From Antitrichia curtipendula (Eukaryota > Streptophyta > Bryopsida > Hypnales > Leucodontaceae): a stretch of DNA of 64,000 nucleotides. Of the stretch, positions 26,986-61,667 are shown one piece after another (position 1 is the first letter of the stretch; each line of letters begins with the position of its first letter). The notes beneath the pieces were generated by a model, which saw nothing but the letters and a program-made list of their open reading frames with translations, searched no databases and was not told the DNA's origin. Position numbers and translations under genes: made by a program. Where the stretch lies: positions 19,716,001 to 19,780,000 of the forward strand of contig OX579637.1 in assembly GCA_951230915.1 (NCBI GenBank), given 5' to 3'.

Positions 26986-26993
26986 TTTAAATA
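26986..26993 (-). promoter_or_regulatory. TATA-like box of the 5' LTR
   Basis: TATTTAAA on the minus strand, about 145 bp upstream of the ATG of the LTR-borne ORF. TATA boxes sit at similar places in the other two LTRs (56,101 and 61,943), which supports the call. Confidence 0.6.
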
Positions 26994-29270: not shown

Positions 29271-29354
29271 TATGTATTTGCGAACTCCGTACTTATTTCC
29301 ATGAAAACGAAACCCTAAAATACGGAACTTAAAATTCAATAACAAACATGTCAT

Positions 29355-30023
29355 TTCAGCGCAAGCCGCGCTGAATTGACAAATATACTCCAACCCAGAT
29401 GAGCATATATGCTCATTCAGCGCGCCTCGCGCTACAAATGTATAAGTGTAGGGTCTCTCCACGAAATGATACATGACGATTTAGCGCGGCTCGCGCTGAA
29501 TGACAACAGACGCGAAGGAAACCTACAGAAAAAACTCTAAATGTCAAACGAAATACCACAATCTCGGTAACCGAGAGAGAGATCTTCTGCTTCACGAAAT
29601 CCAGAGATAACCACTGAGCGCGCCTCGCGCTGAAAAATGTTGAACACCGAAACAAAGACCAGTAACAGGACTGGGCTAATAGTCCAGTCTCAATTTCATT
29701 TCTTGGGATCTAGAAAAAAGCAGAAAGCAACCGGACTATAAACCGCTGAAGCGATTCAGCGCGAATCGCGCTGAATGGCAAAGAGCTGCGAATGCCTCCA
29801 ACTCCATCACAGAAACCAAAACAAAAACCATTAACACTAATATATAACCCAAAGCAATAGTTTAGCACAGACAGCGCCCAGAAGTAGAAAGACCTGAAGG
29901 AGAGAGGTAGAAAAAGGAGACAGATAAATCAATCCCCGAATAATACAAGACGTAACAAACAATCCAAATAGAACCAACGAGCACAACACATGAATACAGT
30001 AGTTCAGCGCGAGTCGCGCTGAA
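29355..30023 (+). repeat. Cluster of six 21-bp quasi-palindromes in the upstream intron of gene A
   Basis: Sites lie at 29,355-29,375, 29,416-29,436, 29,480-29,500, 29,614-29,634, 29,755-29,775 and 30,003-30,023. The best copies have half-sites TTCAGCGCG and CGCGCTGAA around three variable bases (AAT at 29,755, AGT at 30,003). The surrounding DNA is AT-rich and unrelated between sites, so these are dispersed short sites, not a tandem array. They lie between a likely donor at about 29,271 and the acceptor before 30,143. Copies of the same design recur in the later introns of gene A and, as a variant, in gene B. Confidence 0.9.
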
Positions 30024-31593
30024 CAACAAAATGCTGATCACAGCAACAAGGAGAATACAGTGACTGGTAGGGCAATCATCAGAAGCAAAGTAGGAATAAT
30101 CGCTAATAACAAATTGTATCATGGGATACATGCAGATTGCAGAATGGAGAATCAGATGGAGGCGCTCGACATGTACTTCAAGAAATGTGAGGTGCAGCTA
30201 GAAGAGAAACACACTGGCGAGGACGCATCTCTCATGGAAGGGGAATATTGGGAATTCAAGGAGCCAGAGAGAGTGCAGTTCTGGGGATTCATCATGCTCG
30301 CGTTCTCAAACGAGTTCTGCTTCGCATACATGTTCAAGAACGCGCAGGTCTTTCTCAACCTGTCATTCGAAGAGAGAGTGAAGGATGTGGAGGCGGATAC
30401 CCATCCAGTGATCAAAATCAAGTGTGTCACGGCTGTGAACGACGTCCACAAGAATGATCAATACCACTTCACCATTTGCTTGGACTCCGTAATGATTCCA
30501 TTCAACATGACCCCCTTGCTTGGTAGCCTGGATTCGACGCCGTTCCATCAAGATGTCAAGGAACTGGAGAAGAAAATCGACAACAACGAATGGAAAAATG
30601 CAAACGGGACGCCATTGGCCTGGAGGCAACTTGTGTCAAAATTCCGGGCCCTCTTCAAGGATTTTGATACGTTGAGAGGGAAGTATGAAATGCAGAACTC
30701 ATTGAATAAACCGAAGTCAGTCACCATGGACGTTGCCAACCAAGGCGTCAGTCAGAGCTCGAAGAAGACCACCAAGTAGGACTCGGGAAGCAGTCGGGGC
30801 CAGAAATCCTCCCAGAAGACAACTCCCAAGATGCCCCATGAGAAGGAAAAGAAGCCTGCAGTTTCGACTTTTGTAAAGAAAGTTCAGACGAAGTCCTCGG
30901 AACAATCTGAAGTCCATGATGGTAGCTTCGTTGAGGAGATGGCAAATGTTCCTCACTCCTGGGCAACAGAGAGAAAGCCGAACTACAAGGCCATCAACGA
31001 GGCATATCAGAAGTACTGGAGAACATGCAAAGACGCGTATGTCTTCGCGGTTGACGAGAAGAAGGCAGTGGACATCTCCCAGCTAATTGACGCACCGGTA
31101 ACATTCAACATTCGGTCAAAGCAGCAGAGAATAGTAGAAGACAACGTGACCTATCTGCTGAACATCTCCGACAAGAGTGCAAAGCAAACACTTTGCGTTA
31201 TGCCCGTTGGCCTCACGAAAAAACCAGAGACGTGGGAAGAAATTGAAGCCGGACAGTTTTACGTCATTAACGGACAACATAGCGTTGAGGCAAGCAAGTT
31301 TATGTTCAACGACAAAAATGGTGCTGACCACAAGGAACGAGAACATTTCAGGAAATGGAACTGTTTCATCTGGACGGAGAGAAACTGCGAACTGTCTCCG
31401 CGTACTATAATCGGGTGAATCACTTCATAGCCGTTCAGCCATCGTGGGCGACTAATATTCTAGGAGCGCGGCCAGTCTGGGAGGCCATGGGCAAACCAAA
31501 GAATCTAGCTCAAGTTCAGTCGGTCAGTACACTAGCCAATACTAAGCGAACCGTCGAAAATCGGAAGAACAAAGACGCTTTCCAGGTTTGTCA

Positions 31594-31690
31594 TTCAGCG
31601 CGACTCGAGCTGATCTGCAATGGCTTTGTGCCCATCTGATTTGTAACTGTTGAGTCATTCTCACCGCAGATTAGCGCGGGTCGAGCTGAA
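31594..31690 (+). repeat. Pair of 21-bp quasi-palindromes in intron 31,586-31,729 of gene A
   Basis: One site begins 8 nt after the intron start (31,594-31,614: TTCAGCGCG, ACT, CGAGCTGAT). The second is at 31,670-31,690 (ATTAGCGCG, GGT, CGAGCTGAA). The equivalent intron of gene B also has two sites, the first at the identical 8-nt offset. Confidence 0.88.
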
Positions 31691-33095
31691 GTGCTTGTAT
31701 TGACAATAATTTCCTGGAATCGGGTGCAGGCGTTCGAGAAGGCGATTTTGTTGCGATTCTCCATGATCGAAGTAAACAAGAGTTTGAAGATATCAAAGAC
31801 GAAGGGAAAAGAGGAGAAGCTAAAAGTGATAAATGAACTAAAACTCATCACCGCTCTTGAGCATGTATACAAACTCTGGAGCGAGGTTATCTCCGCTACA
31901 GCACATGGTCAAATGCTCAACCCCAACACGGATAAGTTGTTCAATGTGAAGGAAGACTGGAATTCGGATACGCTGGCACTTAATCGGGAGTTCTTTAAAC
32001 ATTTGGGCAATCTGAACTATGACGAGCTGGAGAAACTGGCAAAGCACATTCTCAACCAAATGGGTACCAAGCGAACCCTCTCCTACCCCAAGGTGACAAT
32101 TAAGTCCATCTCGTCCGTGCTTGAGAACTGCTACAACGTGAAGGAATGGGTAGAGAGATGGAAGAGGAAGCACCTTGTGAAAAAAGAGCTTCACCAAATC
32201 AACCTCGAACTTGGTCTTCTGAATGCTAATAACGAGATCATCACGGAGAACTGGAAAGCCTTCAAGAAAGATCGATTCTTCTCGAGGGCAACCATGGATG
32301 TCCTTCTCGACAGACCCGGAGAGGCGTACTTTGGGAAGGCGAAGCTTGTGAGTGCTAAGAACAAGTCATGCTCCGAGCTCTCAGTCAAAGCTTTTCAGTT
32401 CTTCAAGGTGTTCCTTGAGCAGAAGAAGAAGTTCGTGAAGCCCGCTGCATTCGGCTACTATCGATCGTACAAGTTCGCTAAGAACTATTATCACCAGTGG
32501 CCAGCGCAGTCATGGACGGATGAGACCGTGAAGCGACTGTCTCTTGGTGTCGTGGACATCCGAAATTTTCCCGGGATTGAGAAGAAGGATGCGTCCACTG
32601 TGGACAGCCCTTTTTTTGTCGAAGCGATGGCAGCCATGCGGAAGAAGAAGAAACCGACACTTGAGGAGGTCCCCGCCTGGCTATTCATTTGCTCTGACGA
32701 GAAGGAGCAAGCGCAGGTTCTTAGATTTGTAGAGACGAATGAGGATTTGAACACCTATGCCCTGGATTTCGTGACATACACGCCAGGGAAGAACGACCGC
32801 CTTGGTGACATTGCCGCTGCCAGGACACCAAAGAAAGTCTTGCTCACCTTTCTCCAGAACCCCAAAAAAGTGAATCCCGTGGAAATTCCGGACGAATTTG
32901 AATGTCCGGAGACAGCCAGATATACGAAGGCGCGCGCATACAGTGAGCTCAAATATCGGATTCACAACATGGAGTTGCGCATGGAGTTTTATCTGTGGAT
33001 TGTCCGGAAGTTCTGCAATCCGGGGATGTGCGTCTACTCAGCATTCGCGGGAGGGAAGTTGACGTGTGCTGCCATGGTAAGACTCGCCAATGCGA

Positions 33096-33116
33096 ATCAA
33101 CGCGAGTCGTGCTGAT
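33096..33116 (+). repeat. 21-bp quasi-palindrome in intron 33,077-33,210 of gene A
   Basis: Half-sites ATCAACGCGA and TCGTGCTGAT flank a central G; most positions are complementary. It lies 19 nt after the donor. Confidence 0.75.
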
Positions 33117-33846
33117 CTGCTCCTCTGAATTGTGTGTGATTGCCTCTCGGTGTATGCGCACTCCTCAGTTTTGTGTGTTCTAGTTCTGATGTATGCTTTT
33201 TTTGTGTCAGATGGGGAGTGCGTTAGAACCCTCTGCGCCAAACGAGGTTCTCCCATGCCAGGCTTCTGCGGATTCTATCCTAGACTACGGGCAGTATGTA
33301 GTACTCAGCACTGGGAACTTTCTCTGCTCGGCACCCACACTGAATTCCAGTATGGATTTCTGTGTTAAGCCCATCGATGATGGTGTGGTGGACAGTCCAC
33401 CAGATCGGAAGCCTCATCTGCCGGTTTCGTGCTCGCCATCTCCTTTGCGCTCAAGGGATAATCAAAATTCTTCAATGTTTCCAACAGCTTTGGACAAGGG
33501 CACGCAAAGGAGGCTATACGGGGACGCCAACTATCCCATGTCGGCTGCAAAATTGGAGCTCAATGTCCTAGAGAAGCCACGTGATATAGTTGTTCTTGCT
33601 CCTGTTGTTCTGCCGTCACTTCCTCGTCGACGTGCACAATCATATGGACTGGGATTAAAGAGGAAACATGATGAGCCATCGCGGAGTCAATGTTCTACTC
33701 CAAGTCGGGATTCCTAGGAGCTCAGATCGTTACAGGCGCAACGGGTGGAGCACATGCGTCATGCCGGGAAAATTGCTGAAGGTTATAGTCGTGGGCCAGA
33801 GATTTTGAAGGCGTTGGAGAAGCTGAGGAGTACGCCTCGTACTTGA

Positions 33847-34149
33847 AAGCTTAGTTTAGTAAATGACTGAATAGTGTAGATTTAGTAGTAGTTAATGTTG
33901 TAGATATAGAAACATGTGAATAGATTTTTTATAGAACTAAATGTTTCCAAATATCTAGCAAAGGGGTAGTATATACATTGTGGTGAGGTCCATTACTGGA
34001 TATTACAGAATCCTTTCCTGGGTATCCTCTAGATGTGAGCTATGTACACTGTTAGAATTCTACAAACCAGGTAGTCAAAATATGATATCTTCATTGCTTG
34101 TGGTAGTCATGCAACTAGAAGCTTAAACAGATGATGATATGGTGACTAA
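33847..34149. other. 3' flank of gene A, no gene seen
   Basis: AT-rich sequence after the gene A stop codon, probably 3' untranslated region. No open frame, repeat or clear polyadenylation arrangement was identified with confidence. Confidence 0.5.
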
Positions 34150-34365
34150 AGAATGAAGTGGATGCTCAACTTTGACCTAGATCTGGGAACAAATGATGAA
34201 AAAATAAAACCGTCCAAACGTTGCTCTAAGGACATTCATAAATGACGCTCCGAATTGCAACGTCTAGAGAGTGATTTCTGAAAGTCCTAAGGTGGCGTTC
34301 GTATGATTTGTTTCCTCACTATTTGTTCCCTGATCCAAGTTAAAGTTCAGCATCCACTTCGTTCT
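34150..34365. mobile_element. Foldback MITE-like element, 216 bp
   Basis: The left end AGAATGAAGTGGATGCT (34,150 onward) is matched by the right end read in reverse complement (AGAACGAAGTGGATGCT, ending at 34,365). The similarity continues for about 50 bp and less perfectly toward the centre, so the whole unit can fold on itself. It has no coding capacity. No clear target duplication was found, so the superfamily is unassigned. Confidence 0.75.
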
Positions 34366-34719
34366 AAATTCACCATGCATTTGTCTTTCTAAGTAATCTA
34401 TTTGTAGTGTCTTGCACATGCAATGATGATGTCATATTTAGATACCAGGAGTGTAACGGTAGGCTATGTTTCTTTTGGATTTCGTTGGGCAATGCAATCA
34501 TCCATCATTTACGTGTACATGTCATGACATTTGTGAAGGAGTAGTATTACGTATGGCAAGTTGTAGATGACATTTCCATATTTTCCGTTCACAAACTCGT
34601 TTTACATGTAATTGCGTTCCATTTCATGTGCTGAATTCTTGAAATTCACGATTGTTTCTCAATTATATGAATCCAAAGATTCCCATGTCATTGGAATACG
34701 ACTCCCATTTCACTAGAAA
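34366..34719. other. Spacer before satellite II
   Basis: AT-rich sequence without a recognisable gene, RNA or repeat. The first satellite II landmarks appear from about 34,720. Confidence 0.5.
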
Positions 34720-37700
34720 ACTACCAAAATAACGAATATGAGGTTGTAACTACTTCATGGACTCAAACTCCTAACTCCATTTGCAACTTATACAATGCTT
34801 TCTTCCATGGTTTTACCTCAATCTTCCATGAACCTAGACTTGGAATCCATAAGGTACAGGATATGGTTGGTTTTGGTTATTCCCCTCTTTTTTTGCACAT
34901 AAAATATACCCCAAATGCGCATGACGGTAACTATTTCATGGACTCAAACTCCTAACTCCATTTGCAACTTATACAAATCTTTCATCCATGGTTTTACCTC
35001 AAACTTCCATGAATTTGGACTTGAGATCCCTAAAGTACAGGATATGGTTGGTTTTGGTTATTTTTCACTTGTGCACATAATATAACCCTCAAATGTGCAT
35101 GACCGTAACTAGTTCATAAACTCAAACTCCTCACTCCATTTGCAACTTACACAAATCTTTCATCCATGGTTTTACCTCAAACTTCCATGAACTTGGACTT
35201 GGGATCCCTAAAGTGCAAGATTTGGTTGGTTTTATTTATTTTTCTCTCTGGCACATAATATAAACCGCAAATGCGCATGACCGTAACTACTTCATAGACT
35301 CAAACTCCTACCTCCATTTGCAACTTACATAATTCTTTCTTCTATGGTTTTACCTTGAACTTCCACAAACTTGGACTTGGGATCCCTAAAGTGCAAGATT
35401 TGGTTGGTTTTATTTATTTTTCTCTCTGGCACATAATATAAACCGCAAATGCGCATGACCGTAACTACTTCATAGACTCAAACTCCTACCTCCATTTGCA
35501 ACTTACATAATTCTTTCTTCTATGGTTTTACTTTGAACTTCCACAAACTTGGACTTGGGATCCCTAAAGTACAGGATATGGTTGAATTTATTTATTTTTC
35601 TCTTCTGCACATAAAATACCCCAAAATGCGCATGACCGTAACTAGTTCATGGACTCAAACTCCTCACTCCATTTGTAACTCACACAATTCTTTCTTCCAT
35701 GGTTTTACCTCAAACGCCTATGAACTTGGACTTGAGGTTCCTAAAATACAGGATATAGTTGGATTTATTTAATTTTCTCTTTTGCACATAATATAACCCC
35801 CAAATGCGCATGACGGTAACTATTTCATGGACTCAAACTCCTAACTGCATTTGCAACTTACACAAATTTTTCTTCCATGGTTTTACCTCAAACTTCCATG
35901 AACTTGGACTTGGGGTCCCTAAAGTACAGGATATGGCTGGTTTTATTTATTTTTCTCTTTTGCACATAATGTAAACCCCAAATGCGCATGACCGTAACTT
36001 TATCATGGACTCAAATTCCTAACTCCATTTCCAACATACACAAATCTTTCTTCCATGATTATACTTCAAATTTCCATGAACTTGGATTTGGGGTCCCTAA
36101 AGTACAGGGTAAGGTTGGATTTATTTGTTTGTCTCTTTTGCACATAATATAACCCTCAAATGCGCATGATCGGCACTTTATCATGGACTCAAACTCCAAA
36201 CTGCATTTGCAACTCACACAATTCTTTCTTCCAAGGTTTAATGTCAAATTTCATTGAACATGGATCTAAGAATCGTTAAGAACAGGATATGGCTGGTTTT
36301 ATTTAATTTTCTCTTTTGCACATATTATAACCCCGAAATGCGCATGATAGTAACTTTATCATGGACTTAAACTCCTTACTCCATTTGCAACATACACGAA
36401 TCCTTTTTCCATGGTTTTACCTCAAACTTCCATGAACTTGGATTTAGGATCCTTAAAGTACAAGATATGGTTGGTTTTATTTATTTTTCTCTTTTACACA
36501 TATTATAACCCCCAAATGCGCAAAACCGTAACTATTTCATGGACTCAAACTCGTAACTCTATTTGCAACTTACACAATTCTTTCTTCCATGGCTTTACTT
36601 CAAACGCCCATGAACTTGGTCTTGGGATTCCCAAAGTACAGGATATGGTTGGTTTTATTTATTTTTCTCTTTTGCACATAATATAACCCCCAAACGCGCA
36701 TGACGGTAACTATTTCATGGACTCAAACTCCTAACTCCATTTGCAACAATTACAAATTTTTCTTCCATGGTTTTACCTCAAACTTCCATGAACTTGGACT
36801 TGGGGTCCCTAAAGTACAGGATATGGTTTGTTTTACTCATTTTTCTCTTTTGCACATAAGAGAACCCTCAAATGCGCATGATCGGCACTTGATCATAGAC
36901 TCAAACTCCTAACTGCATTTGCAACTTAGACAATTTTTTCTTCCAAGGTTGCATGTCAAATTTCTTCGAACATGGACCTGAGAATCGTAAAGTACAGGAT
37001 ATGGTTGGTTTTATTTATATTTCTCTTTTGCACATAGTATAACCTCCAAATGCGCATGATAGTAACTTTATCATGGACTCAAACTCCTAACTCCATTTGC
37101 AACATACACAAATCCTTTTTCCATGGTTTTACCTCAAACTTCCATGAACTTGGACTTAGGGTCCTTAAAGTACAAGATATGGTTGGTTTTATTTATTTTT
37201 CTCTTTTGCACATAATAGAACCCGCAAATGCGCAAGACCGTAACTTTATCATGGACTCAAACTCCTCACTCCATTTGCAACTTACACAATTCTTTCTTCC
37301 ATGGTTTTACCTCAAACGCCCATGAACTTGGACTTGAGGTCCCTAAAATATAGGATATAGTTGGTTTTATTTAATTTTTTCTTTTGCACATAAAATAACC
37401 CCCAAATGCGCATGACGGTAACTATTTCATGGACTCAAACTTCTATGAACTTGGAGTTGGGGTCCCTAAAGTACAGGATATGGTTGGTTTTAGTTGTTTG
37501 TCTCTTTTGCACATAATATAACTCTCAAATGCGCATGACAGTAGGTAGATCATGGACTCAGACTCCTAACTCCATTTGCAACTTATACAACTCATTCATC
37601 CATGGCTTTACCTCAAACTTCCATGAACTTGAACTTGGGGTTTCTAAAGTACAGGATATATTTGGTTTTATTTATTTTTCTCTTTTGCACATTATATAAC

Positions 37701-40700
37701 CTTCAAGTGCCCATGATCGTAACTTTATCATGGACTCAAACTCCTAACTCCATTTGCAACTTACACAGCTTTTTCTTCCATGGTTTTATCTCAAAAGCCC
37801 ATGAACTTGGACTTGGGATCCCAAAAGTACAGGATATGGTTTGTATTATTTGTTTTTCTCTTTTGCACATAATAAAACCCTCAAATGCGCATGATCGGAA
37901 CTTTATCATGGACTCAAAATCCTAATTGCATTTGCAACTTACACAATTCTTTTTTCCAAGGTTTCATGTCTAATTTCTTTGAACATGGACCTGAGAATCG
38001 TAAAGTACAAGATATGGTTTGTTTTATTTGTTTTTCTCTTTTGCACATAATATAACCCTCAAATGCGTAGGATCGTAACTTTATCATGGACTCAAACTTC
38101 TAACTCCATTTGCAACATACACAAATCCTTTTTCCATGGTTTTGCCTCAAACTTCCATGAAGTTGGACTTAGGATCCTTAAAGTACAAGATATGGTTTGT
38201 TTTATTTGTTTTTCTCTTTTGCACATAATGTAAACCCCAAATGCGCATGACCATAACTTTATAATGGACTCAAACTTCTAACTCCATTTGCAACATACAA
38301 AATTCTCTCTTCCATGGTTTTACCTCAAACTTCCATGAATTTGGACTTGGGGTCCCTAAAGTACAGGATATGGTTGGTTTTATTTATTTTTCTCTTTTGC
38401 ACATAATATAACCCTGAAATGCGCATGACAGTAACTTTATCATGGACTCAAACTCCTAACTCCATTTGCAACATACACAAATCCTTTTACCATAGTTTTA
38501 CCTCAAACTTCCATGAAGTTGGATTTAGGATCCTTAAAGTACAAGATATGGTTGGTTTTATTTGTTTGTCTCTTTTGCACTTAACATAACCCCCAAATGC
38601 GGATGACCGTAAATAGTTCATGGACTCAAACTCCTAACTCCATTTGCGACTTACAAAAATCATTCTTCCATGGTTTTACCTCAAATTTTCATGAATTTGG
38701 ACTTGGGATCTATAAAGTACAAGATATGGTTGGTTTTCTTTATTTTTCTCATTTGCACATAATATAACCTTCAAGTGTGCATGACCGTAAGTAGTTCATG
38801 GACTGAAACTTTTAACTCCATTTGCATCATATACAAGTCATTCTTCTATGGTTTTACCTCAAACTTCCATGAACTTGGACTTGGGGTCCCTAAAGTACAG
38901 AATATAGTTGGTTTTATTTACTTTTCTCTTTTGTATATAATGTGACCCCGAAATGCGCATGACCGTTACTATTTCATGCACACAAACTCCTAACTCCATT
39001 TGCAACTTACACAATTCTTTCTTCCATGGTTTTACCACAGACTTCCATGAACTTGGACTTGGGATCCCAAAAGTAAAGGATATGGTTGGTTTCATTTGTT
39101 TGTCTCTTTTGCGAATAATAGAACCTCCAAATGCGCATGCCGGTAACTAATTCATGGACTCAAATTCCTAACTCCATTTGCAACTAACACAATTCTCTGA
39201 TCCATGCATTTACCTCAAACTTCCATGAACTTGGACTTGAGATCCCTAAAGTACAGGATATGGTTGGTTTTACTTAATTTTCTCTTTTGTGCATAATATA
39301 ACCCCCAAATGCGCATGACAGTAACTATTTCATGGACTCAAACTCCTAACTTCATTTGCAACAATCACAATTCTTTCTTCCATGGTTTTACCTCAAACTT
39401 CCATGAACTTGAACTTGGGATCTTCCAAAGTACAGGATATGGTTGGTTTTATTTGTTTTTCTCTTTTGCACACAAAATCAAGCGCATTGCGCATGACCGT
39501 AACTACTTCATAGACTCAAACTCCTAACTCCATTTGCAACTAACACAAATCTTTCTTCCATGGTTTTACCTCAAACTTCCATGAACTTGAACTTGGGATC
39601 TTCCAAAGTACAGGATATGGTTGGTTTTATTTGTTTTTCTCTTTTGCCCATAATATAGCCCCCAAATGCACATGACCGTTACTACTTCATGGACTCAAAT
39701 TCCTAATTCCATTTGCAACTTAAAATATTCTTTCTTCTACGGCTTTACCTCAAACTTCCATGAACCTGGACTTGGAATCCCTAAAGTACAGGATTTGGTT
39801 GGTTTTATTTATTTTTCTCATTGGCATATAAAATACGCCCAAATGTGCATGGCCAAATTTATTTCAAGAACTCAAACTCTTAACTTCATTTGCAACAAAC
39901 ACAATTCTTTCTTCCATGGTTTTACCTCAAACTTCTATGACCTAAGACTTGGGGTCCCTAAAGTCCAGCATATGGTTGGTTTTATTTACTTTTCTCTTTT
40001 GCACATCAAATACCCAAAAATACGCATGACGGTAACTAGTTCTTTGACTCAATTTCCTAACTCCATTTGCAACTTACACAAATCTTTCTTCCATTTTTTT
40101 ACGTCAAACTTCCATGAACTTGGACTTGGAATCCCTAAAGTACAGGATGTGGTTGGTTTCATTTATTTTTGTCTTCAACACATAATACAACCCCCAAATG
40201 CGCATGACGGTAACTAGTTCATGGACTCAAATTCCTAACTCCATTTGCAACTAACACAAATCTCTGTTCCATGCATTTACCTCAAACTACCATGAACTTG
40301 GACTTGGGATCCCTAAAGTACAGGATATGGTTGGTTCTATTAATTTTTCTCTTTTGCACATAATATAACCCCCAAATGGTAACTATTTCAAGGACTCAAA
40401 CTCCTAACTCCATTTGCAACAAACACAATTCTTTTTTCCATGGATTTACCTCAAACTTCCATGAACTTGGACTTGGAATCCCTAAAAAACAGGATATGGT
40501 TGGTTTTATTTGTTTTTCTCTTTTGCAGATAATATAACCCCCAAATGCGCATGACGGTAGCTTTTTCATGGACTCAAACTCCGAACTCCATTTGCAACTT
40601 ACACAAATCTTTCTTCCATGGTTTTACCTCAAACTTCCATGAACTTGGACTTGAGATCCCTAAAGTACAGGATATGGTTGGTTTTACTTAATTTTCTCTT

Positions 40701-47716: not shown

Positions 47717-48359
47717 GGGTGGATGCATGGTTGAATGGCTCATTTTTCGAAAAAGTCCAAGTCCAAAAAGTCCTTTCTTGTGAGTAAAATATTTGGGAGT
47801 GAAATACTTGGAAGTGAATTCTATAAGAAACGAATTCTAAAAAAATTCAAAAAGTCCTTAGCTTTTTGAGCGCCCCTAGACCTTGAAAATCATTATATCT
47901 TAAAAAAAATCATTTTTGTAAATAAAAATATTGGCTATAAGAAAAAGACTTCATAAAATTCAATGTTTGAATAGTCATTAAAAAGTCCTTTGCGGACGTT
48001 CAATACGTATTTACACAACAAGATTATAATTTTGTAAAAACTTACCAAAACATCCACTAGAATCATAGTCCTTTGTATGAATTTAAGAACCTAAATCATC
48101 TTTAAAAAGTCCTTGAAAAATATGCTGACAACAAATTTGTCACATCCATCTTTTTTTAAAAGTCCTCTTTACTTTCATATTTTGCCACAAAAAAAATTCA
48201 ACAACATAGTTGTATTCATAATCAAGTTTAAGACCCTAAAATGAACTTTTTTTTTCAAGTTAAATTTTTCTAGTATACCCAAACCGCAATTGACAATTTG
48301 ATAAGTGCAGTTTTCAAAAGTGTGACATGATTTTGAGCCCGTCAACCATGCATTCACCC
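47717..48359. mobile_element. Non-autonomous DNA transposon with TIRs inserted in satellite II
   Basis: The ends are inverted repeats of about 25 bp: left GGGTGGATGCATGGTTGA, and right, in reverse complement, GGGTGAATGCATGGTTGA, each followed by a GGCTC. The 4-bp sequence TACC flanks both ends (47,713-47,716 and 48,360-48,363), and removing the element restores the satellite text GGTTTTACCTCAAAC. The 643-bp body has no gene. AAAAGTCCTT-like motifs recur at least five times inside, like subterminal repeats. The 4-bp duplication would fit Sola-type elements, but superfamily assignment needs a search. Confidence 0.88.
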
Positions 48360-51300
48360 TACCTCAAACTTCCATGAACTTGGACTTGGGGTCCCCAAAG
48401 TCCAGGATATGGTTGGTTTTATTTATTTTTCTCTTTTGCACACAAAATACCCGAAAATGCGCATGACAGTAACTAGTTCATTGACTCAAACTCCTAACTC
48501 CATTTGCAACTTACACAAATCTTTCTTCAATGGTTTTACCTCAAACTTCCATGAACTTGGACTTGGGAACTCTAAAGTCCAGGACATGGTTGGTTTTATT
48601 TATTTATTTCTTTTGCACATAATAAAAACCCCATATGCGCATGACAGTAACTAATTCATGGACTCAATTTCCTAACTCCATTTGCAACTTACACAATTCT
48701 TTCTTCCATGGTTTTACCTCAAACTTCCATTAACTTGGACTTGGAATCCCTAAAGTACAGGATATGGTTGGTTTTTTTTATTTTTCTCTTTTGCACATAA
48801 AATACCCCAAAATGCGCATGACGGTAACTAGTTCATTGACTCAAACTCCTAGTTCCATTTGCAGCAAACACAAATCTTTCTTCAATGGTTTTACCTCAAA
48901 CTTCCATGAACTTGGACTTGGAGTCCCTAAAGTATAGGATATGGTTGGTTTTATTTATTTTTCTCTTTTGCACATATTATAACCACCATATGCGAATGAC
49001 GGTAACTAGTTCATTGACTCAGACTCCTAACTCTATTTGCAACTTATACAATACTTTCTTCCATGGTTTTATCTCAAACTACCATGAAGCTGGATTTGGG
49101 ATCCCTAAAGTACAGGACATGGTTGGTTTTATTTATTTTTCTCTTTTGCACATAATATGACCTATAAATGCGCATGACGGTAACTATTTCATGCACTTAA
49201 ACTCCTAACTCCATTTGCAACTTACACAAATCTTTCTTCCACGGTTTTACCTCAAACTTCCATGAACTTAAACTTCAGATCCCCAAAGTACAAGATATGG
49301 TTGGTTTTATTAATTTTTTTCTTTTGCACATATATAACCCCCATATGCGCATGACGGTAACCAATTCATGGGTTCAATTTTCTAACTCCATTTGCAACTT
49401 ACACAATACTTTCTTCCATTGTTTTACTTCAAACTTCCATGAATTTGGACTTGGGGTCCCTAAAGTACAAGATATGGTTGGTTCTATTTATTTTTCTCTT
49501 TTGCACATAATATAACCCCCAAATGCGCATGATGGTAACTAATTCATGGACTCAAACTTCTAACTCCATTTGCAACTTACACAATTCTTTCTTCCATGGT
49601 TACCTCAAATTTCCATGAATTTGGACTTAGGATCCCTAAAGTACTAGATATGGTTGGTTTTATTTATTTTTTTCTTTTGCACATAATATGATCCCCAGAT
49701 GCGCATGATCGTAACTATTTCATGCACAGAAACTCCTAATTCCATTTGCAACTTACACAATTCTTTCTTCTATGGTTACCTCAAACTTCCATGAACTTGA
49801 ACTTGGCATCCCAAAGGTACAGGATATGGTTGGTTTTATTTATTTTTCTATTTACACACAAAATACCCCCAATTGCGCATGACCGCAACTAATTCATGGA
49901 CTCAAACTCCTAACTCCATTTGCAACTTACACAATTCCTTCTTCCATGGTTTTACCTCAAACTTCCATGAACTTGGACTTGGGATCCCTAAAGTACAGGA
50001 TATGGTTGGTTTTATTTGTTTTTGTCTTTTGCACATAATATAACCCCCAAATGCGCATGACCGTAACTAGTTCATGGACTCAAATTCCTAACCCCATTTG
50101 CAACAAACACAATTCTTTTTTCCATGGTATTACCTCAAACTTCCATGAACTTGGACTTGCGATCCCTAAAGTACTAGACATGGTTGGTTTTATTTCTTTT
50201 TCTTTTTTGCATACAACATAACCCCCAAATGTGCAAGACCGTAACTACTTCATTGACTCAAACATTTAACACTATTTCCAACTTACACAACTCTTTCTTC
50301 CACGGTTTTACTCCAAACTACCATGAATCTGGATTTGGGGTCCCTAAAGTACAGGATATGGTTGGTTTTATTTGTTTTTGTCTTTTGCACATAATATAAC
50401 CCCCAAATGCGCATGACCGTAACTAGTTCATGGACTCAAATTCCTAACCCCATTTGCAACAAACACAATTCTTTTTTCCATGGTATTACCTCAAACTTCC
50501 ATGAACTTGGACTTGCGATCCCTAAAGTACTAGACTTGGTTGGTTTTATTTCTTTTTCTTTTTTGCATACAACATAACCCCCAAATGTGCAAGACCGTAA
50601 CTACTTCATTGACTCAAACATTTAACACTATTTCCAACTTACACAACTCTTTCTTCCACGGTTTTACTCCAAACTACCATGAATCTGGATTTGGGGTCCC
50701 TAAAGTACAGGATATGGTTGGTTTTATTTATTTTTCTCTTTTGCACAAAATATGACCCCGAAATGCGCATGACCGTAACTATTTCATGTACACAAATTCC
50801 TAACTCCATTTGCAACTTACACAACTGTTTCTTCCATGGTTTTCCCTCAAAGTTCCAAGAATTTGGACTTGGGATCTCTAAAGTAAAGGATATGGTTGGT
50901 TTTATTTATTTTTCTCTTTTGCACATAATATAACCCTCAAATGCGCATAACCGTAACTATTTCATACACTTAAACTCCTAACTCCATTTGCAACTTACAC
51001 AATTCTTTCTTCCATAGTTTAACCTCAAACTTCCATGAAGTTGGACTTGGGATTCCTAAAGTACAGGATATAGTTGGTTTTATTTAGTTTTTTCTTTTGC
51101 CCATAATATAGCCCCAAAATATAAATGATTGTAACAACTTCATGGACTCAAACTCCTACCTCCATTTGCAACTTACACAATTCTTTCTTCAATGGTTTTA
51201 CCTCAAACTACCATGTTGTTGGACATGGGATCTCTAAAGTACAGGATATGGTTGATTTTATTTATTTTTCTCTTTTGCAGATAATATAGCCCTCAAATGC

Positions 51301-53450
51301 AAATGACCGTAACTAATTTATGGACTCAAATTCCTAACTCCATTTGCAACTTATACAATTCTTTCTTCCATGGTTTTACCTCAAACTTCCATGAACTTGG
51401 ACTTGGGATCCCTGAGGTAAAGGATATGGTTGGTTTTATTTATTTTTTCTCTTTTGCACATAATATAACCCTCAAATGCGCATAACCGTAATTATTTCAT
51501 GGACTCATACTCCTAATTCCAGTTGCAACAGACACAATTCATTCTCCCATGGTATTACCTCAAACTTCCATGAACTCAGACTTTAGCTCCCTAAAGTACA
51601 GGATGTGGTTGGTTTTGTTTATTTCTCTCGTTTGCACATAATAAAAACCCCAAATGCGCATGACCGTAACAAATTCATGGACTCAAACTTCTACCTCCGT
51701 TTGCAACTTAAACAATTCTTGCTTCCATGGTTTTACCTCAAACTCCCATGAACTTGGACTTGGCATCCCTGAGGTACACGATATGGTTGGTTTTATTTAT
51801 TTCTCTCTTTTGTTCATAATATAACTCCCAAATGCGCATGACGGTAACTAGTTCACAGACTCAAACTCCTGACTCCATTTCCATTTAACACAATTCTTTC
51901 TTCCATGGTTTTACCTCAAACTTCCATGAACTTGGACTTGGGATCCCTAAAGTACAGGATATGGTTGGTTTTATTTGTTTTTGTCTTTTGCACATAATAT
52001 AACCCCCAAATGCGCATGACCGTAACTAGTTCATGGACTCAAACTCCTAACTCCATTTGCAACATACTCAATTCTTTCTTCCATGGAATTACCTCAAACT
52101 TCCATGAACTTGGACTTGGGATCCCTAAAGTACACGATATGGTTGGTTTTATTTGTTTCTCTCTTTTGCACATAATATACCCCAAAATGCACATGATCGT
52201 AACTAGTTCACGGACTCAAACTCCTAACTCCATTTTCATTTAACACAATTCTTTTTTCCATGGTTTCACGTCAGAATTCCATGAACTTGGACTTGGGATC
52301 TTTAAAGTACAGGATATGGTTTGTTTTATTTATTTTTCTCTTTTGCACATAATAGAACCCCCAACCGTATCTATTTCATGGACTCAAACTCCTATCTCCA
52401 TTTGCAACAAACACAATTCCTTCATGCATGGTTTTACCTCAAACTTCCATGAACTTGGACTTGGAATCTTTAAAGTTTAGGATATGGTTGGTTTTACTTA
52501 CTTTCTCTTTTGCACATAAAATACCCCAAAATGCGCACGACCGTAGATATTTCAAAAACTCAAACTCCTAACTCTATTTGCAACTTACACAATTCTTGCT
52601 TCCATGGTTTCACGTCAAAAATCCATGAACTTGGACTTGGGGTCCCTAAAGTACAGGATATGGTTGGTTTTATTTATTTTTCTCTTTTGCACATAAAATA
52701 CCCCCAAATGTGCATGACCGTAGATATTTCAAAAACTCAAACTCCTAACTCTATTTGCAACTTATACAATTCTTTCTTCCATGGTTTCACGTAAAATTCC
52801 ATGAACTTGGACTTGGGATCCCTAAAGTACATGATATGGTTGGTTTTATTTATTTTTCTCTTTGGCACATTATATAACTTCCAAATGCGCATGACAGTAA
52901 CTATTTCATGGACTCAAACTCCTAACTCCATTTGCAACTTATACAATTCTTTCTTCCATGGTTTTACGTCAAACTTCCATGAATTTGGACTTGGGGTCCC
53001 TAAAGTACAGGATATGGTTGGTTTTATTTATTTTTCTCTTTTGCAATTCTCCAAAATGCGCATGACCGTAAATATTTCATAAACTCATACTTTTAACTCC
53101 ATTTGCAACTTATACAATTCTTTCTTCCATGGTTTCACGTCAAAATTCCATGAACTTGGATTTGGAATCCCTAAAGTACAGGATATGGTTGGTTTTATTT
53201 ATTTTTCTCTTTTGCACATAAAATACCCCAAAATGCGCATGACCGTGAATATTTCATAAAAACAAACTTCTTACTCCATTTGCAACTTACACAATTCTTT
53301 TTTCTATGGTTTCACGTCAAAATCCTATGACTTTGGATTTGGGATGCCTAAAGTACAGGATATGGTTGGTTTTGTTTATTTTTCTCTTTTGCACATAAGG
53401 TACCCCAAAATGCAAATGACCCTTAATATTTCATATTTAGAAATAAAGAT
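48360..53450 (+). repeat. Satellite II, second block
   Basis: The ~178-bp units resume immediately after the transposon in the same orientation and phase and continue to about 53,440, becoming more diverged in the last few copies. A two-unit (356-bp) duplication links 50,184 onward with 50,540 onward. Together the two blocks hold about 100 units. Confidence 0.97.
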
Positions 53451-54620: not shown

Positions 54621-55802
54621 GTATTGCATTTCATTTCCAGGTTTCTGTTTTTGTAACATTGTTTTTTGTTGTCATACACTTGTGCTCGATTTTAGAGTTT
54701 TTGATTTTGTATTTACGGGTTTTGGCTTACTCTAAACCTTGTGAAGAATGTCTTTTGTGTTTTCTTAAAACTTGTGGACTGAATTTAGCTTTTTGATTTA
54801 GATGTTCTCGGTGCACAGTCTTGGGTTTACATTGGTCTCGGTGCAAAGTTTTGGATTTAGATTGTTCTTGGTGGAGGTGGTGGAATGGAAAAAACGTTGA
54901 ACGTTATGTCTTTTGAACATTGTGTTTTTAGTTTTCTTAAACCTGCGTCCAATTTGATTATGCTCATAGTCCGTGGATACATGAATTTGTTCAGAGGTTT
55001 TTATTAAGGGATTGTTCTCTGAACCTGCACACAGTTCAGTTGTTCTTTGTCTGTGCAACAACACATTGTGAATAACGGGAACTCAAAGCTTGTATTGCTT
55101 CAAATGTGCAGGTTTCAGTTCGCAACATCAAGGACATCAAGGACTTCATAACCTTCTTCACTACAGATATGCACCAGTTGTTAGCTTAGGGTTTAGGGTC
55201 TTGCTTAGGGTTTACGGTCTTGCTGATCGCTTAGGATTTAGGGTTTAGTGTGAGAGTGTAGAATCTTATTTTGGTGAACCTCTAGAAATCCAGATTAGGG
55301 ATTAGTAAAAATAAAAATCATATGCAGGTCAGATCGATTACAGTTTAGGTCAACAACAGTTCAGGTCGACTATTAAGGTAAACAAATAAATGCATAAAAT
55401 AATGAAAGTAATTATAATTTTATTCAGGTCAACCCAACCTGAACAAACCTTAGTTGTGATAATCACAAACCAAACCACAACAGAAGAAACAACCTAAATT
55501 CACAGTGTCCAAGACGGAAGCCCACATCAACTTCCACTTTGGGTTGAATCAACCTGAATGAGAAAAACAGAGCAAGTAAACAGAGACATAAGGCAACCAG
55601 GTCGACCCAACTTGAATAATCAAGTAGCAAATCAATTCCAGGAACACAAAAAATCCAAATAGATCAGATACACATCGTTTAGGTTGACTTGACCTAAAAG
55701 GCAGGTAACAATCTAGAACAAACAAGATAGGAAGAAAATAACCCGGACCAGTAGATCAGGTCGACCCTATCTAAAATAGCACAACATATGTAGAGTGTAG
55801 AG
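54621..55802 (+). other. Intron-like upstream region of gene B
   Basis: T-rich, intron-like sequence. Degenerate telomere-like TTTAGGG/TTAGGGT units appear at 55,186-55,245. A possible acceptor lies at about 55,111. No coding frame is convincing. The right part carries the palindrome cluster and then the solo LTR. Confidence 0.45.
55423..55775 (+). repeat. Cluster of five 21-bp quasi-palindromes, gene B type (left of solo LTR)
   Basis: Sites lie at 55,423-55,443, 55,538-55,558, 55,596-55,616, 55,678-55,698 and 55,755-55,775. The clearest has half-sites TTCAGGT and ACCTGAA around seven bases; 55,678 has TTTAGGT and ACCTAAA. The length (21 bp) and outer TTCAG/CTGAA match the gene A sites, but the inner bases are GGTC/GACC rather than GCGC. 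Confidence 0.85.
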
Positions 55803-56100
55803 TGTCACAACCATAATTCCTTTGTTTATCTAGAAGAGAGAACGGAAGCTGACAATTAGTATTCGGATTCTGTTTAGAAACAGAAGAGAACGGAAAATTA
55901 AGCAAGGCATTAAAGTAACGGAACAGTTGGATCTGATCCGGTCCTCACAGTAATACTTAGGAACCGGAATGGAATCGAAACCGTATCCGGAATGGAATCG
56001 AAACCGTATCCGGAATGAAAGAAGATCGGATTAGGGTTAGACCGGAATGTTGGGGCCGGACTGGTAAAAGTCATCATGACTACTTTTAGGTCATGAAAAC

Positions 56101-56108
56101 TATAAAAG
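56101..56108 (+). promoter_or_regulatory. TATA box of the solo LTR
   Basis: TATAAAAG, about 265 bp upstream of the ORF start at 56,372, in a position comparable to the TATA boxes of the other LTRs. Confidence 0.65.
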
Positions 56109-56371
56109 GCCAGGACCACCTTAGTCGTGCTCCTTTTCCAAACTCCGTTTGGTGAGAGTTGTTTCTTTGCGCTCCTCGTTTTCAGTGTTGTGTGTGTGAG
56201 TTTGCGAGTGCTCGCGCATTAGAAGTGTGCTGCAGGGTAGGCTTCCGGTCGCGTACCATTCGCTGTGCAGTTTTCCGGTTAAGATCGGAGAGAGAAAGTG
56301 AGAACGGGACGTGCGGCTAGAAGTGGGTGAGGTAAAATCGGAAAGGGATTGCCTACATCTAGTTTGTGTCC

Positions 56372-58009
56372 ATGCCGCAACTTAGGAAGCATAGACCAAG
56401 GGCATCCACATCAACGATGGCTCCGGTTAAACTCCGGAAGGTCGTTTCGGTTCTCCTCGCAATAGAGAAAGAGACGGAGATGCTTAGAATTGATCTGACC
56501 CGAATGGGATGTCAGGGTCTGCTAGACAAACCCTAAGGGTTTAAAGATGAGCGGATGGTGAAAGAGATCGAGGGGAAATGGACAAATCAGTTTGACAATA
56601 CACTTAGATGTGTTCCGGCTGAGTGGACGGAAGAGATCTGGAGAGAGGTGTACAAGTTCCGGGTAGGAGGCCACGAGATGGCAAACCGGAAGGACGAGTA
56701 CATCCGGGGCAAGTTCCGGGGAGCCGTCAATCCCAAGGATGCATATGTGGTGGAGGATTGCATGGACAATCGGCACTGGAAGCTGCTTCAGTTCCTGATT
56801 CCGATCCTACATCCGGAGAAGCCAACGAGGGTGACGATCACCCTGGGCAACACAATCTTCGGGGCTCTAAGCGGAGATCGGAAGGCGGACTGGGCCCGGA
56901 TCATGTTCGATCTGGTGGCCCAGCTAGCGACAAGGGTCAGAAGAAGTAGGCCGACACCGGTTTGTGCCTACCTCTTCCACCTTTACGAGCATCACCAACT
57001 CCTGTTGGACTCAGAAGAGAAGGAGTGGAAGGCTTAGGAGAATCTCCTGAAGTACAGAGAGTCGGAATCCGATGACGAGGAAGAAGAAACCAGATCCGAG
57101 ACCGAGGAAGAAGAAGAAGAGGAAGAGACGGAGAGGCCGCCCAAGCGGCACAAGACGACATCTCCGACCGGAAGAGGATTGCCGATCGGAGACAAATCCA
57201 GTAAGGAGAAGACACCGGAAGCGGAGAAGGCAAGTACCTCGAAAGCGAAACTTGGGGATCCGTTCGAGAAGCTGGTTAGGATCCTCTGCGACATCCGCGG
57301 GGATTGGGAGGCAAAGAGAAGGATCCTCTCGAGGATTGGAAAGTTGGTGCACGCGGCACCGGATGGCGAGTTACCGGCAAAGGTGGCGGATTGCATCACG
57401 AATCCGGCCGAGATCCGGAAACAAGAAGCCAAGATCCGTCAACTTCAGGAGGAAGTCGACATGTTGAAGGCGGAAGCTGCGACCTTCAAGGAAGACATGT
57501 CTGCCACCCAGAAGATGGCGGACGAAATGCAAAAAGTCGCCAAAGCGGTGAAGACAACTTTCGGTGAGACCGGAAGCACGGCAGTCAAAGCAAGGCTCTT
57601 TGATGAGAAGGCCTTGGAGGACAAGAAGCTATCCGGTTCCTGGATAGTTCAGATCCTAACGGACTTCTCCGATCAGGTTGAGAAGACGATGGTGAAGGCG
57701 CGGGAGGTGGCAAATCGGATGGAGGAGTGCGCGCAGAAGCTGACCGGATCCATGAGGGTCCACCTGTCGGACATCTCCATGCCAGAGTTGTTTTCGGATA
57801 TGTCGGAGCCGAGGGAGGGAAAGGATCAGACTCCGCAGTCAAGGAAGAGTCAGCCTTCCCAGACCGCGCCCATCAACTTGGATTTGTCACCTGGTTCCAA
57901 TCTGCCCAATCCTATAGCCGAGGAGCGGAACAGGAACTTGGGAGATGTCTTCGAGCAACTAGAGGCGGAGCCCAAGAGTCCTTCATTGGGGCGCGAAATA
58001 GCCATGTAA
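56372..58009 (+). pseudogene. LTR-borne ORF, second copy, with two in-frame stops
   Basis: From ATG 56,372 one frame of 546 codons reaches TAA 58,007, interrupted by TAA at 56,534-56,536 and TAG at 57,035-57,037. It aligns along its length with the 649-codon ORF: WTEEIWREVYKFR with WTEDVWAEVYSFR, FLIPILHPEKPTRVTITLGN with FLIPILYPEKPTRVTVTMAN, LLKY after the conserved domain, an acidic stretch followed by a basic patch (RPPKRHKTT), a coiled coil (KIRQLQEEVDMLKAEAATFK) and KARLFDEKAL...WIVQIL with KARLYDAQLV...KIVMIL. The frame is otherwise undamaged. The similarity shows that the ORF is an old, shared component of these LTRs. Confidence 0.85.
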
Positions 58010-58926
58010 AATAAGTTAGTTTTTTGTAGATATAGGATAAGAACGGATCCGGATCTGTAATCTGATTTGGTAGTGTTAGGACGGACCGGAAGTAAGGATC
58101 CGGAAATAGGTTGACTTTTACAGGCACTTTTGTCTTTTGTATTTTTGGAAGTTTTCAAAGTGTACATAAATCAGTCCCTGTGCTGGGGACTAGGAGTCTT
58201 TCCTCTACATTTTTTTGTGTTTCCTATTTGCTCTCTTGTTGTACGTTTTCTCCCAAGTTTGGCAGGTTGGTATGAGAGGGAGTTAAGGAGGCACGAGCGG
58301 ATGTGTTAGGAATTTCTTCCCTTGATGTTTTTCTTGATTCTAAGTGCATGTGAGCGAATAGGATAGAGTTGGGAGTAAACTCCAGTGCCTCAACGCGTCT
58401 AGAAGTTTGAGATTTTGGGTGAGAAAGCCATTGTTAGGCTAGGGGGATAGGGAGGGATCCCTTAGTCGCGCTAGAACTCCTGGGTGGGAAATCCGGTCGA
58501 GTGTCCAATCTTTTGTGAAGTCTTGCCATCCTAGCGATAAACGGAAGAACTCTATTTGATCACTAGAAGACTAGTTGAAATCGGAAGAGAGAGAGATTCC
58601 GGTCATAAGTTTTCTTGGTGTTTGTGTTTCTGGTTTTAGAAGTAGAACTAGAAGAAAGGATTTTGCTACTAACTTTGCTTAGTTGATTAATAAGGCTAGA
58701 TACTTCACAGAATCTCGTGGGTTCGATCTTTAAAGTCACTTAGTTATACTCTAGGGTGATTTTTGTGAGTATAATGGGGAATTTACCTATCCTGTGCTGC
58801 GACGCAGAGGTTGAAATCAACCAGATCATTCAACACCCCAAACATGTACACCGTGACTAGTCGAATGAATGAAATCAACCGATTAACCTATTAAATCACA
58901 CACTGAGTTGAAAGAACAAAATCATG

Positions 58927-59085
58927 ATTAGGTCGAGTCGAGCTAAAATGCATGTTCATGGCAGTACACACACGAAGGCAACATAATATAACACGATTGA
59001 CAGAGGCAAAGAGAGAAACTGCATGACTGATGTGTTGTCGTGACAAAGTCATCAACCAGCAATAATTAGCTCAACTCGACCTGAA
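58927..59085 (+). repeat. Two 21-bp quasi-palindromes, gene B type (right of solo LTR)
   Basis: Sites are at 58,927-58,947 (ATTAGGTCGA, G, TCGAGCTAAA) and 59,065-59,085 (ATTAGCTCAA, C, TCGACCTGAA). They belong to the same intron as the five sites left of the solo LTR and end 32 nt before the acceptor at 59,117. Confidence 0.82.
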
Positions 59086-59117
59086 TATAATAAGCGGATG
59101 TCAACATTACTTTGCAG

Positions 59118-61667
59118 GATGGAAGACCAGATATCAAAGCTGGAGGCATTCTATAAGAAATGCGAAACCTTCAATGTCGAGGATGACAGAGACGACTTCG
59201 ACCAAGAAGGGGGGTACTGGGAGTTCCTAAATCCAGAAAGAGTATAGTATTGGAGTCTGAACTTAATACCGTTCAAGAACATCATATGCTTCGCCGTGAA
59301 GTATAAAGAAACCGAGCCATACTTCCCAATATTCTATAACAAAGAAGTCAAGGAAATTGTCTACGATCTGGAGCCAATAATAAAAATTCACTGCAAGACA
59401 ACACAGACAGGAGTACAAGAAGAAGACTAGTATCACTTCATGCTGGTTCTAGACTCCTCAAAGGTAGAGTTCAACATCTCGCACTTCATCAAGTCACTAG
59501 AACCAATGGACTACCGAACAGAGATCCCGGAACTGGAGAAGAAAGTTGACCTTGGCTTCTTCAAGATGGCAAGTAGGAGAACTGTAGTCGGGAAGAGCTT
59601 GTATGCTAAGCTCAGGATTCTCTTTGTCGACTTTGCTGTACTGAAGGCAAAACTCCAAGCAAAGCAGAAGGACATGACCCCGCGGTTGGTCTCCATTAAA
59701 AGTCCGAGCGCAATAGAAGGGCAGGGGTCAATGGAAACTCCAGGAACGCAATAGAGCCGCGGGACAAGAAGGAGCAAGCAAGTAGGTGCAACCCTCTCAA
59801 GCCGAAAGAAAAGCAACTTGACATTGTTGTCAGAGATCGTCCCGTACGACAAGGACGCAAGCGCATCTGTAGCTGGAGAACAAAGCTTCGTCTCCGCAGT
59901 AACTAATGTACCTATTGCGTACGACTTGAAGCGGAAACATGATTACGACGCTTCCACGGCTGTGTACAAAGCGTACTGGAAGAATTGCACAAATGCATAC
60001 GTCTTTGGTTGGTAGGAGAAAAAGACGATACCCATTGACCAGCTCAGTGAGGCACCTGCATACCTTAACATTCGCAGCCATGAGCAAAGATTGGCCAAGG
60101 ACGTCATGACGTTTCTGTGGGAGATGTCTGACAAGTCCACAAAACAAACATTGTGTGTCATGCCCATGGACCAGATTGAGAAATCCACACCCGAATAGTG
60201 GCCACTACTGAAGGACAAGAAGTTCTACATTATCAACGGCCAACACAGTGTAACTGCGAGCAAGCTGATGGTCGCAAAGGGACTAGACGAAGAAATTGTG
60301 AAATACTTTTGCCAGTGGGAGTGCTATGTGGTCTGGTCATCAGATGGTGAAAAGCTCCATGCCATCTCCGTGTACTACAATCGAGTGAATCACGTTGTTG
60401 CCACGAAACCGTCGTGGTCCACTAACATCTTCGGAGCGAGGAAGGTCTGGGAAATTATGGGGGGACCCAGAAATCCCAAAGAAGCTGCATCGGTTGGAAA
60501 GAAGTTCAACGCTAGGCGAAACATGGACAACAAACTGAACAAAACAATGTTCAAGGTATGCACTTCAGATCGGCTCGACCTGAACTGCAGAACATACTCT
60601 ATCTGCATCATTAAGCAAGAATACAATTATGGTCGACTCAACCTGAACCTCGCTTACTAACTGCTCTATGATGCATCTCGCTCTTACAGGAATTCTCCTT
60701 GGCAATGTACAAGCGCTTTGCCATGCTTGATGCTGTGAAGGCTCAGAAAGCAGCAAAAGGCAAGGACGCAAAAGAAAAGCTCAAGATTGTGAACGAGCTC
60801 AAGATTATCACCGCTCCTAATGAAGTCTTCAGCCTCTGGAGTGAGGTGATTTCGAGCGCAGCGCACGGGGAGCTCATGGACCCAGACACCCACATGAAGT
60901 TCAACGCGAGAACAACCTGGAAGCTAGAGAGCGGGAACTTGACCCACGAATTTTTCAAGTGGCTTGGTAATCTCTCATTGTATGACTTGACAAAGCTAGC
61001 CAAGCACATCCTGCACCAGGAGCCAGGAAGGAAGAACAAGAAGTACCCGAAGGTGACAATTAAACTCATCACGGGTGTGCTCAAAAGCTGCTACACATGC
61101 AAAGAGTGGGTTGAGTGCCGGAAGCGCAAGTACCTTGTGAAGCGGGCATTGCACCTCGTAGACTCGACACTGGGACTAATGAACGCCATGGACGAGTTGA
61201 ACATGAAGAAGTGGAGGCAGTTCAAGAAAAATCAAAACTTCACGAGCGCCACGATGAACGTCCTTCTTGAGCAACCTGGAGACGATTATTGGGCCGAAGC
61301 CAAGCAGCCCAGAGCCAAGAACAAATTTGTGGAGGAAATGTAATCGTACACGGCCCAATTCTTCAAGGTGTTCCTCAAGCGCAGGAATAACTTCGTGCCG
61401 CCAATGTTTGTCGCTCACTACCGACCGTATGACATAAAATTAGAAGAGCACCAGGATTGGCCGAAGGGGGCGATGACTGCCGAGCACTTGAAGAATATGG
61501 CGTTCGGTGTATAGGACGTGAGGTACACTCCTATCGTCCTGAACAAGGAAACGTGCATGCCATCTTACCTGTTCTTCACAGCTGCATTGAGATCGTTTCA
61601 GGAGAAAGGTCAACCGCATCTTGAGGACGTCGGGGATTGGCTTTTGATAGCTTCAGATCTCACGGAG
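59118..61667 (+). pseudogene. Gene B: paralog of gene A, with amber codons, cut by an LTR
   Basis: Exons are 59,118-60,555 and 60,690-61,667; the coding start is ATG 59,119. The 59,119-60,555 frame has no frameshift over 479 codons but contains TAG at 59,245, 59,428, 59,752, 60,013 and 60,196 and no other stop. The next exon has TAA at 61,341 and TAG at 61,512. Clear matches to gene A include FYIINGQHSV (about residue 368) with FYVINGQHSV, YYNRVNH, KPSWSTNIFGAR with QPSWATNILGAR, YPKVTIK and DWLLIASD with AWLFICSD. The intron 60,556-60,689 is phase 0 at the same codon position as in gene A. The C-terminal third, which in A holds the methyltransferase-like motif, is missing because an LTR begins at 61,668. 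The shared TAG at 59,752 corresponds to TAG 30,777 in gene A. It is non-functional as written unless the TAGs are suppressed. Confidence 0.75.
60564..60647 (+). repeat. Pair of 21-bp quasi-palindromes in intron 60,556-60,689 of gene B
   Basis: The first site (60,564-60,584: TTCAGATCG, GCT, CGACCTGAA) starts 8 nt after the intron start, exactly as in gene A. The second is at 60,627-60,647 (TTATGGTCGA, C, TCAACCTGAA). Confidence 0.88.

Follow-up and report, generated by a model that had tools for sequence, protein, structure and literature searches.

What a series of short palindromes does inside the introns of a damaged gene is the question raised by a 64,000-nt stretch of the moss Antitrichia curtipendula (GCA_951230915.1, contig OX579637.1, positions 19,716,001–19,780,000, forward strand), the whole of which we call the window and in whose own numbering positions are given. 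The window holds two copies, here genes A and B, of a gene predicted to encode a ParB-like protein, and the introns of both contain 21-bp near-palindromes that are confined to introns in the DNA analyzed, recur in relatives of the gene, and differ in their inner bases from one protein clade to another. In the reading that we favor, and that we regard as moderately probable, the two genes are degenerate copies of a transposon-like gene and the palindromes are DNA sites recognized by the very protein that the element encodes, in the service of an anti-silencing activity like that of the VANC proteins.

Eighteen sites were located, nine in each gene, and all 18 coordinates proposed in an earlier note on this DNA proved right. 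Intron 1 of gene A contains A1 (TTCAGCGCAAGCCGCGCTGAA, 29355..29375), A2 (29416..29436), A3 (29480..29500), A4 (29614..29634), and two perfect 10/10 palindromes, A5 (29755..29775) and A6 (30003..30023); intron 2 contains A7 (31594..31614) and A8 (31670..31690), and intron 3 contains A9 (33096..33116), which starts 19 nt past a donor placed by eye at 33077. Since intron 1 of gene B is split by inserted DNA, its seven sites fall on both sides of the insert, with B1 (55423..55443), B2 (55538..55558), B3 (55596..55616), B4 (55678..55698) and B5 (55755..55775) before it and B6 (58927..58947) and B7 (59065..59085) after it, while B8 (60564..60584) and B9 (60627..60647) lie in intron 2. The insert spans about 55830–58850 and holds a Gag-like frame that stops interrupt (both by eye), and a lone exact half-site (TTCAGGTCGA, 55360..55369, plus strand) without a partner lies upstream of the intron. 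As the earlier note had stated, the first site of intron 2 begins exactly 8 nt past the donor in both genes (donors at 31586 and 60556), and the introns otherwise do not align: outside exons the two regions share only matches of 17–30 bp, whereas the exons are similar, their longer matched stretches being 66–74% identical.

Each site consists of two 10-bp half-sites, with the consensus TTCAG-xx-CGA, that flank one free base. The outer arms described in the note as TTCAG-n11-CTGAA are exact in five of the 18 sites and approximate in the remaining 13. Its two inner types are borne out, with half-site positions 6–7 reading CG in 15/18 half-sites of gene A and GT in 14/18 of gene B, and the right halves of both gene A intron-2 sites reading CT. 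The B sites are decayed: their core CpG is present as CG in eight of the 18 half-sites, as TG or CA in nine and as AG in one.

When the window was scored with a matrix made from all 18 sites, the sites themselves reached 16.9–30.3 bits and the best other sequence 7.6; when the non-satellite DNA was simulated 200 times with a first-order Markov model, hits at 16.9 bits averaged 0.04 per copy (mean best score 11.5, highest 21.0). Since the sites scored are also those from which this matrix was built, the fair test is the crosswise one. With a matrix from the nine A sites, six B sites come next (18.7 to 8.5 bits), the sixth tying with one non-site; with a matrix from the nine B sites, six A sites come next (19.9 to 13.7), ahead of the first non-site at 12.1. 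None of the 18 sites lies in an exon of gene A or B, as had been claimed, and none was found outside the introns of this gene family anywhere in the 64-kb window, which holds several other elements.

The gene belongs to a large family. A first search returned 26 relatives; every one that is named comes from Physcomitrium patens or Ceratodon purpureus, and one cluster among the relatives has 139 members. The A and B proteins are 41% identical across 812 residues, and both genes are broken: gene A has two in-frame TAG codons, a frameshift and a missing part, and gene B has lost its end and carries eight in-frame stops, six of them TAG, over 59119–61682, with the final one where the matched stretch ends. 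A and B are thus decayed members of a multi-copy, transposon-like moss family, one that may at some time have been mobile.

The intron sites recur across this family. Since open reading frames (ORFs) called on unannotated contigs overrun splice donors, their tails are translated introns, and every codon choice for such tails was scored with the window matrix, a site being counted at 20 bits or more. The sample comprised 93 ORFs (P0015 and P0023–P0114), many of them near relatives, and 21 annotated gene-model proteins were left out, their introns being removed; an exon-2 anchor was present in 34 ORFs, four of them too short, and an exon-3 anchor in 33, nine too short. A site was encoded by 23/30 exon-2 tails, against 7/290 control exon stretches of the same lengths, and by 18/24 exon-3 tails, against 1/240. 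It starts 8 nt past the nearest upstream Val codon, a proxy for the donor, in 11 of 18 site-bearing exon-2 tails. Among the seven exon-2 tails without a site (P0028, P0054, P0032, P0033, P0057, P0041 and P0043), all but P0032 and P0028 stop before, at, or a few codons past the donor (by eye); the exon-3 tails without one are P0114 (17.1 bits), P0092, P0089, P0102, P0066 and P0098. The note had raised the possibility that family members elsewhere lack the sites in their introns, and their presence in the same introns largely answers it.

Two relatives, L001 and L002, were recovered as DNA, their genes being 98% and 77% identical to ORF P0046. Their contigs are filed in the cyanobacterial bin AVDCRST_MAG81, yet the introns have the form GTAAG...CAG, and the contigs are likely moss-like DNA contaminating that bin. 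Each holds eight sites of at least 22.8 bits, with next best scores of 11.7 and 12.6; all 32 half-sites are of a CT type (the half-site reads CAYAWTCAGCTCGA) and 10 of the 16 sites are perfectly symmetric. Exons, delimited with tblastn and by where ORFs end and in part by eye, were mapped over 64% of each contig and contain none of the 16 sites; although the L001 site at 6591 falls within an open frame, splice-like ends GTTTGT...TTTTGTAG, judged by eye, place it in an intron. The first site of introns 2 and 3 is 23–25 nt from the donor at both loci. Symmetry continues beyond the 21-bp core for 6 bp per side at L001 3012 and 7 bp per side at L002 4391. Viral contigs yielded no relative by protein search and no exact palindrome of the CT type, the only type scanned there.

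Site types also follow the protein tree. Labels (CG, GT, CT or GG) were assigned by hand from the tails, P0086 being labeled from the second of its sites, which scores higher (the first is of GT type). Among 26 exon-2 proteins arranged in a tree, the type changes four times, where the minimum is three and shuffled labels give a mean of 12.5, with none of 200 shuffles as low, and the A type is monophyletic (support 100/99). The 20 exon-3 proteins that have a site in intron 3 require five changes versus 9.1 after shuffling, and there the A type does not group as one clade. Inheritance alone could cluster site types on a tree. Since gene A has its own type in most of nine sites spread over three introns, the sites appear to have changed in concert. 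The earlier claim that site and protein co-diverge is therefore supported, each branch of the family showing a site type of its own, with exceptions in two proteins, which are weighed below, and in the CT right halves of the two gene A intron-2 sites.

The family protein is predicted to contain, in the part encoded by exon 2, a ParB-type nucleotide-binding fold, and a beta-class DNA-methyltransferase fold is predicted in the same protein; longer relatives add an FCP1-like domain. Weak matches over the ParB-like stretch came from DUF6551 (E 0.06, P0008) and phrog_22099 (E 0.028, P0001). The motif NGQH[S/N/C] occurs in 49/114 proteins, the others being without that stretch or leaving the pattern unmatched, and D-x-R-x-x-P occurs in 56 of 114. 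Neither the catalytic [DNS]PP[YFW] nor the cofactor motif FxGxG[TS] was found in any of the 114 proteins, many of which do not cover the domain, and for that reason we file the family as a diverged relative in make-up and not as a methyltransferase.

In the mechanism that we propose, this pairing of a ParB-type domain with a methyltransferase fold stripped of its catalytic motif would read the 21-bp palindromes as the element's self-recognition sites in DNA, repeated within its introns. A protein dimer would bind the two half-sites and so mark the element as self, most likely to protect its chromatin from silencing and keep it open, in the way that VANC acts on VANDAL transposons. Exons may have no sequence to spare for such sites, which would confine them to introns, and a change in the specificity of the protein would force the sites of its element to change together.

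Parts of the published work on comparable systems bear on this proposal. Within VANDAL21, VANC21 binds short motifs that lie in non-coding sequence, introns included (PMC5735166), and VANC targets differ between related elements (PMC5735166, PMC10398659). Moss elements likewise repeat a motif in their own non-coding regions and not in exons, and it likewise diverges with the protein, P0104 and P0023 excepted. The VANC21 motif YAGTATTAY is, however, nine bases long and set in same-orientation arrays (PMC5735166), whereas the moss sites are 21-bp palindromes. The moss family may work as VANC does, a likeness drawn for the mode of working alone. Bacterial ParB-family sites are palindromic, and the moss protein shares its predicted ParB fold with ParB of the ParB–parS system, KorB and VirB; unlike them, it has NGQHS where the usual ParB phosphate motif would stand, and its sites lie in eukaryotic introns. 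VirB is itself a ParB-like anti-silencer that counters silencing (PMC10653881). A survey of ParB folds includes ParB-N6_N4 methyltransferase fusions in phages (PMC12704722), the same domain pair as that predicted here, except that the moss family has lost the active-site motif; the words moss, plant and transpos are absent from the main text of that survey.

Similar in make-up are algal proteins. Sola1-1_Ec32 of Ectocarpus joins ParB-like and N4/N6 DNA-methyltransferase domains in a single protein of roughly 1100 residues within a mobile element, ParB-methyltransferase accessory proteins of transposons are said also to occur in green and red algae, and the authors suggest that such proteins may act on the transposon that carries them by binding and modifying it (PMC12477816). 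The moss family likewise has both predicted domains in one protein, but it is without the catalytic DPPY, has an FCP1-like domain in its longer relatives, and comes with candidate target sites. By predicted domain make-up, and not by comparison of sequences, it can be placed as a diverged relative of those algal proteins. What is new here is the intron sites, ParB-methyltransferase genes in eukaryotic transposons having already been published. Our literature search found no report of target sites for ParB-methyltransferase transposon proteins, and titles and the starts of abstracts gave no moss ParB gene or intron palindromes of this kind, though an earlier mention is possible. What such proteins bind had, in the text of PMC12477816 available, only been suggested; likely target sites are now visible within the gene, and many diverged protein–site pairs make self-recognition, a specificity code and a link to silencing testable in the laboratory moss Physcomitrium patens.

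Several results weigh against recognition of the sites by the encoded protein as a DNA reader. The ParB-like identity assigned in the earlier note stands as a predicted fold without any Pfam match: among the scanned proteins, Pfam, NCBIfam and PDB-sequence searches gave no ParB or methyltransferase match, nor did PHROGs, and Foldseek returned nothing at E <= 1e-3. ORF P0032 reads well beyond its donor, and P0028 a few codons beyond, without encoding a site. The clade rule is broken by P0104, of CT type among A-like proteins, and by P0023, which has a CT right half inside the B clade. Untranscribed DNA, in which a DNA reader might have sites as well, showed none, and around gene A (27288–34750) the 25 longest of 49 inverted pairs include no element ends or terminal repeats. 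To these are added signs of pairing between arms. Inner-core positions pair in 56/72 cases when A and B are pooled, versus 42.9 shuffled, an excess that the two site types alone produce. Flanking positions −4 to −1 pair in 43/64 cases at the L loci (36.6 shuffled, P = 0.015) and in 32/72 in the window (22.9 shuffled, P = 0.016), and core position 1 pairs in 13/16 cases at the L loci (8.8 shuffled, P = 0.037).

Pairing of the flanks and of position 1 would be better explained by an RNA stem, although repair that evens out palindromes could produce it too. It favors an alternative in which the sites are RNA hairpins near the donor in the pre-mRNA, bound by the element's own protein and slowing splicing as a form of autoregulation, which we consider possible but rather unlikely. 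The intron placement of the sites fits such hairpins, as does the position of the first site, 8 nt past the donor in both window genes and in 11/18 exon-2 tails and 23–25 nt past it in introns 2 and 3 of L001 and L002; this placement may, however, merely reflect where short introns have room, the 3′ part of a short intron being occupied by the branch point and pyrimidine tract. Intron 2 folds better than its shuffles in both genes (z −3.5 for A and −2.5 for B, over intervals that start one base late), but in the gene A fold the two sites pair together and not each with itself, and gene A intron 3 folds no better than shuffles (z −0.5). Arm shuffling shows no co-variation of the core arms within A or within B, which counts for DNA, as does the conservation of A10 in 31/32 half-sites of L001 and L002, since A10 and T12 cannot pair in RNA around one base. 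Both of the predicted folds are also DNA-binding ones. We therefore lean towards DNA as the working form of the sites.

Internal transposase-binding sites, comparable to the subterminal repeats of DNA transposons, would likewise come as several short repeats per element and diverge along with their protein, but the sites are spread through the gene body, among the 25 inverted pairs compared around gene A (of 49) none resembles element ends, and the predicted protein has no transposase fold, so we hold a role in transposition to be quite improbable. More doubtful still is that the sites are mobile mini-palindromes or mutational relics, self-spreading and surviving by chance in introns. Repair can even out palindromes and the flanks are symmetric, as such an origin would allow, yet none occurs outside family introns in 64 kb with several other elements, distant relatives have them at the same intron positions, and their inner bases track the protein tree.

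A bolder version of the recognition model, which we offer as speculation and think unlikely to hold, is that a phage-type ParB-methyltransferase was rebuilt by a plant selfish element into a device resembling ParB–parS. Driven by nucleotide, a clamp would load at the palindromes of its own introns and spread to keep the element active, the dead methyltransferase fold would read the site, and copies would escape by concerted change of their sites. The methyltransferase-like fold is structurally similar to CcrM, whose target is GANTC, and the site center reads GANTC in 14/16 L sites. Since only 7/18 window sites do so and GANTC shows no excess in L002 (40 versus 34 expected), this link is weak.

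The exons of both genes lie on the plus strand. In gene A, a putative 5′ untranslated exon (29165..29269, with a donor GTATGT at 29270 by eye) is followed by exon 2 (30136..31585), which encodes the N-terminal part and ParB-like domain and contains one in-frame TAG and the frameshift, near 31400; exon 3 (31730..33076), which encodes a helical part and the methyltransferase-like domain without an in-frame stop; and a last exon (33211..33845) with one in-frame TAG. Residues 12–82 of this last exon match L001 6211–6426 (37%, E 1.5e-6), and because that stretch comes after the FCP1 ORF, linker and FCP1-like exons have apparently been deleted from gene A; past the stop of the FCP1 ORF, the L001 stretch is either a second gene or, within the element, an alternative last exon. 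In gene B, exon 2 (59119..60555), again with the N-terminal part and ParB-like domain, has five in-frame TAG codons, and the truncated exon 3 (60690..61680) also contains in-frame stops. The bias of its stops to TAG (6/8) is the expected outcome of CAG decay through cytosine methylation, which seems simpler than an alternative code with TAG as Gln.

Its satellite arrays, LTR element and DUF659 gene give the window the look of nuclear DNA from a moss or near kin. Both gene copies adjoin long satellite arrays (4–14661, with 180-bp units in 81 copies, and 34746–53434, with 178-bp units and a gap at 47.7–48.4 kb) in a centromere-like setting. A long terminal repeat (LTR) element occupies 16925–27289, with 954-bp LTRs that are 99.2% identical and, by eye, a pol-like frame on the minus strand. 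Just 3′ of gene A lies a 395-bp imperfect palindrome (34061–34455, 71% self-complementary) that resembles a miniature inverted-repeat transposable element. Tandem repeats of 19/38 bp occupy 62442–62583, and a DUF659 gene, presumably hAT-like, begins at 63010 and runs off the right end of the window at 64000.

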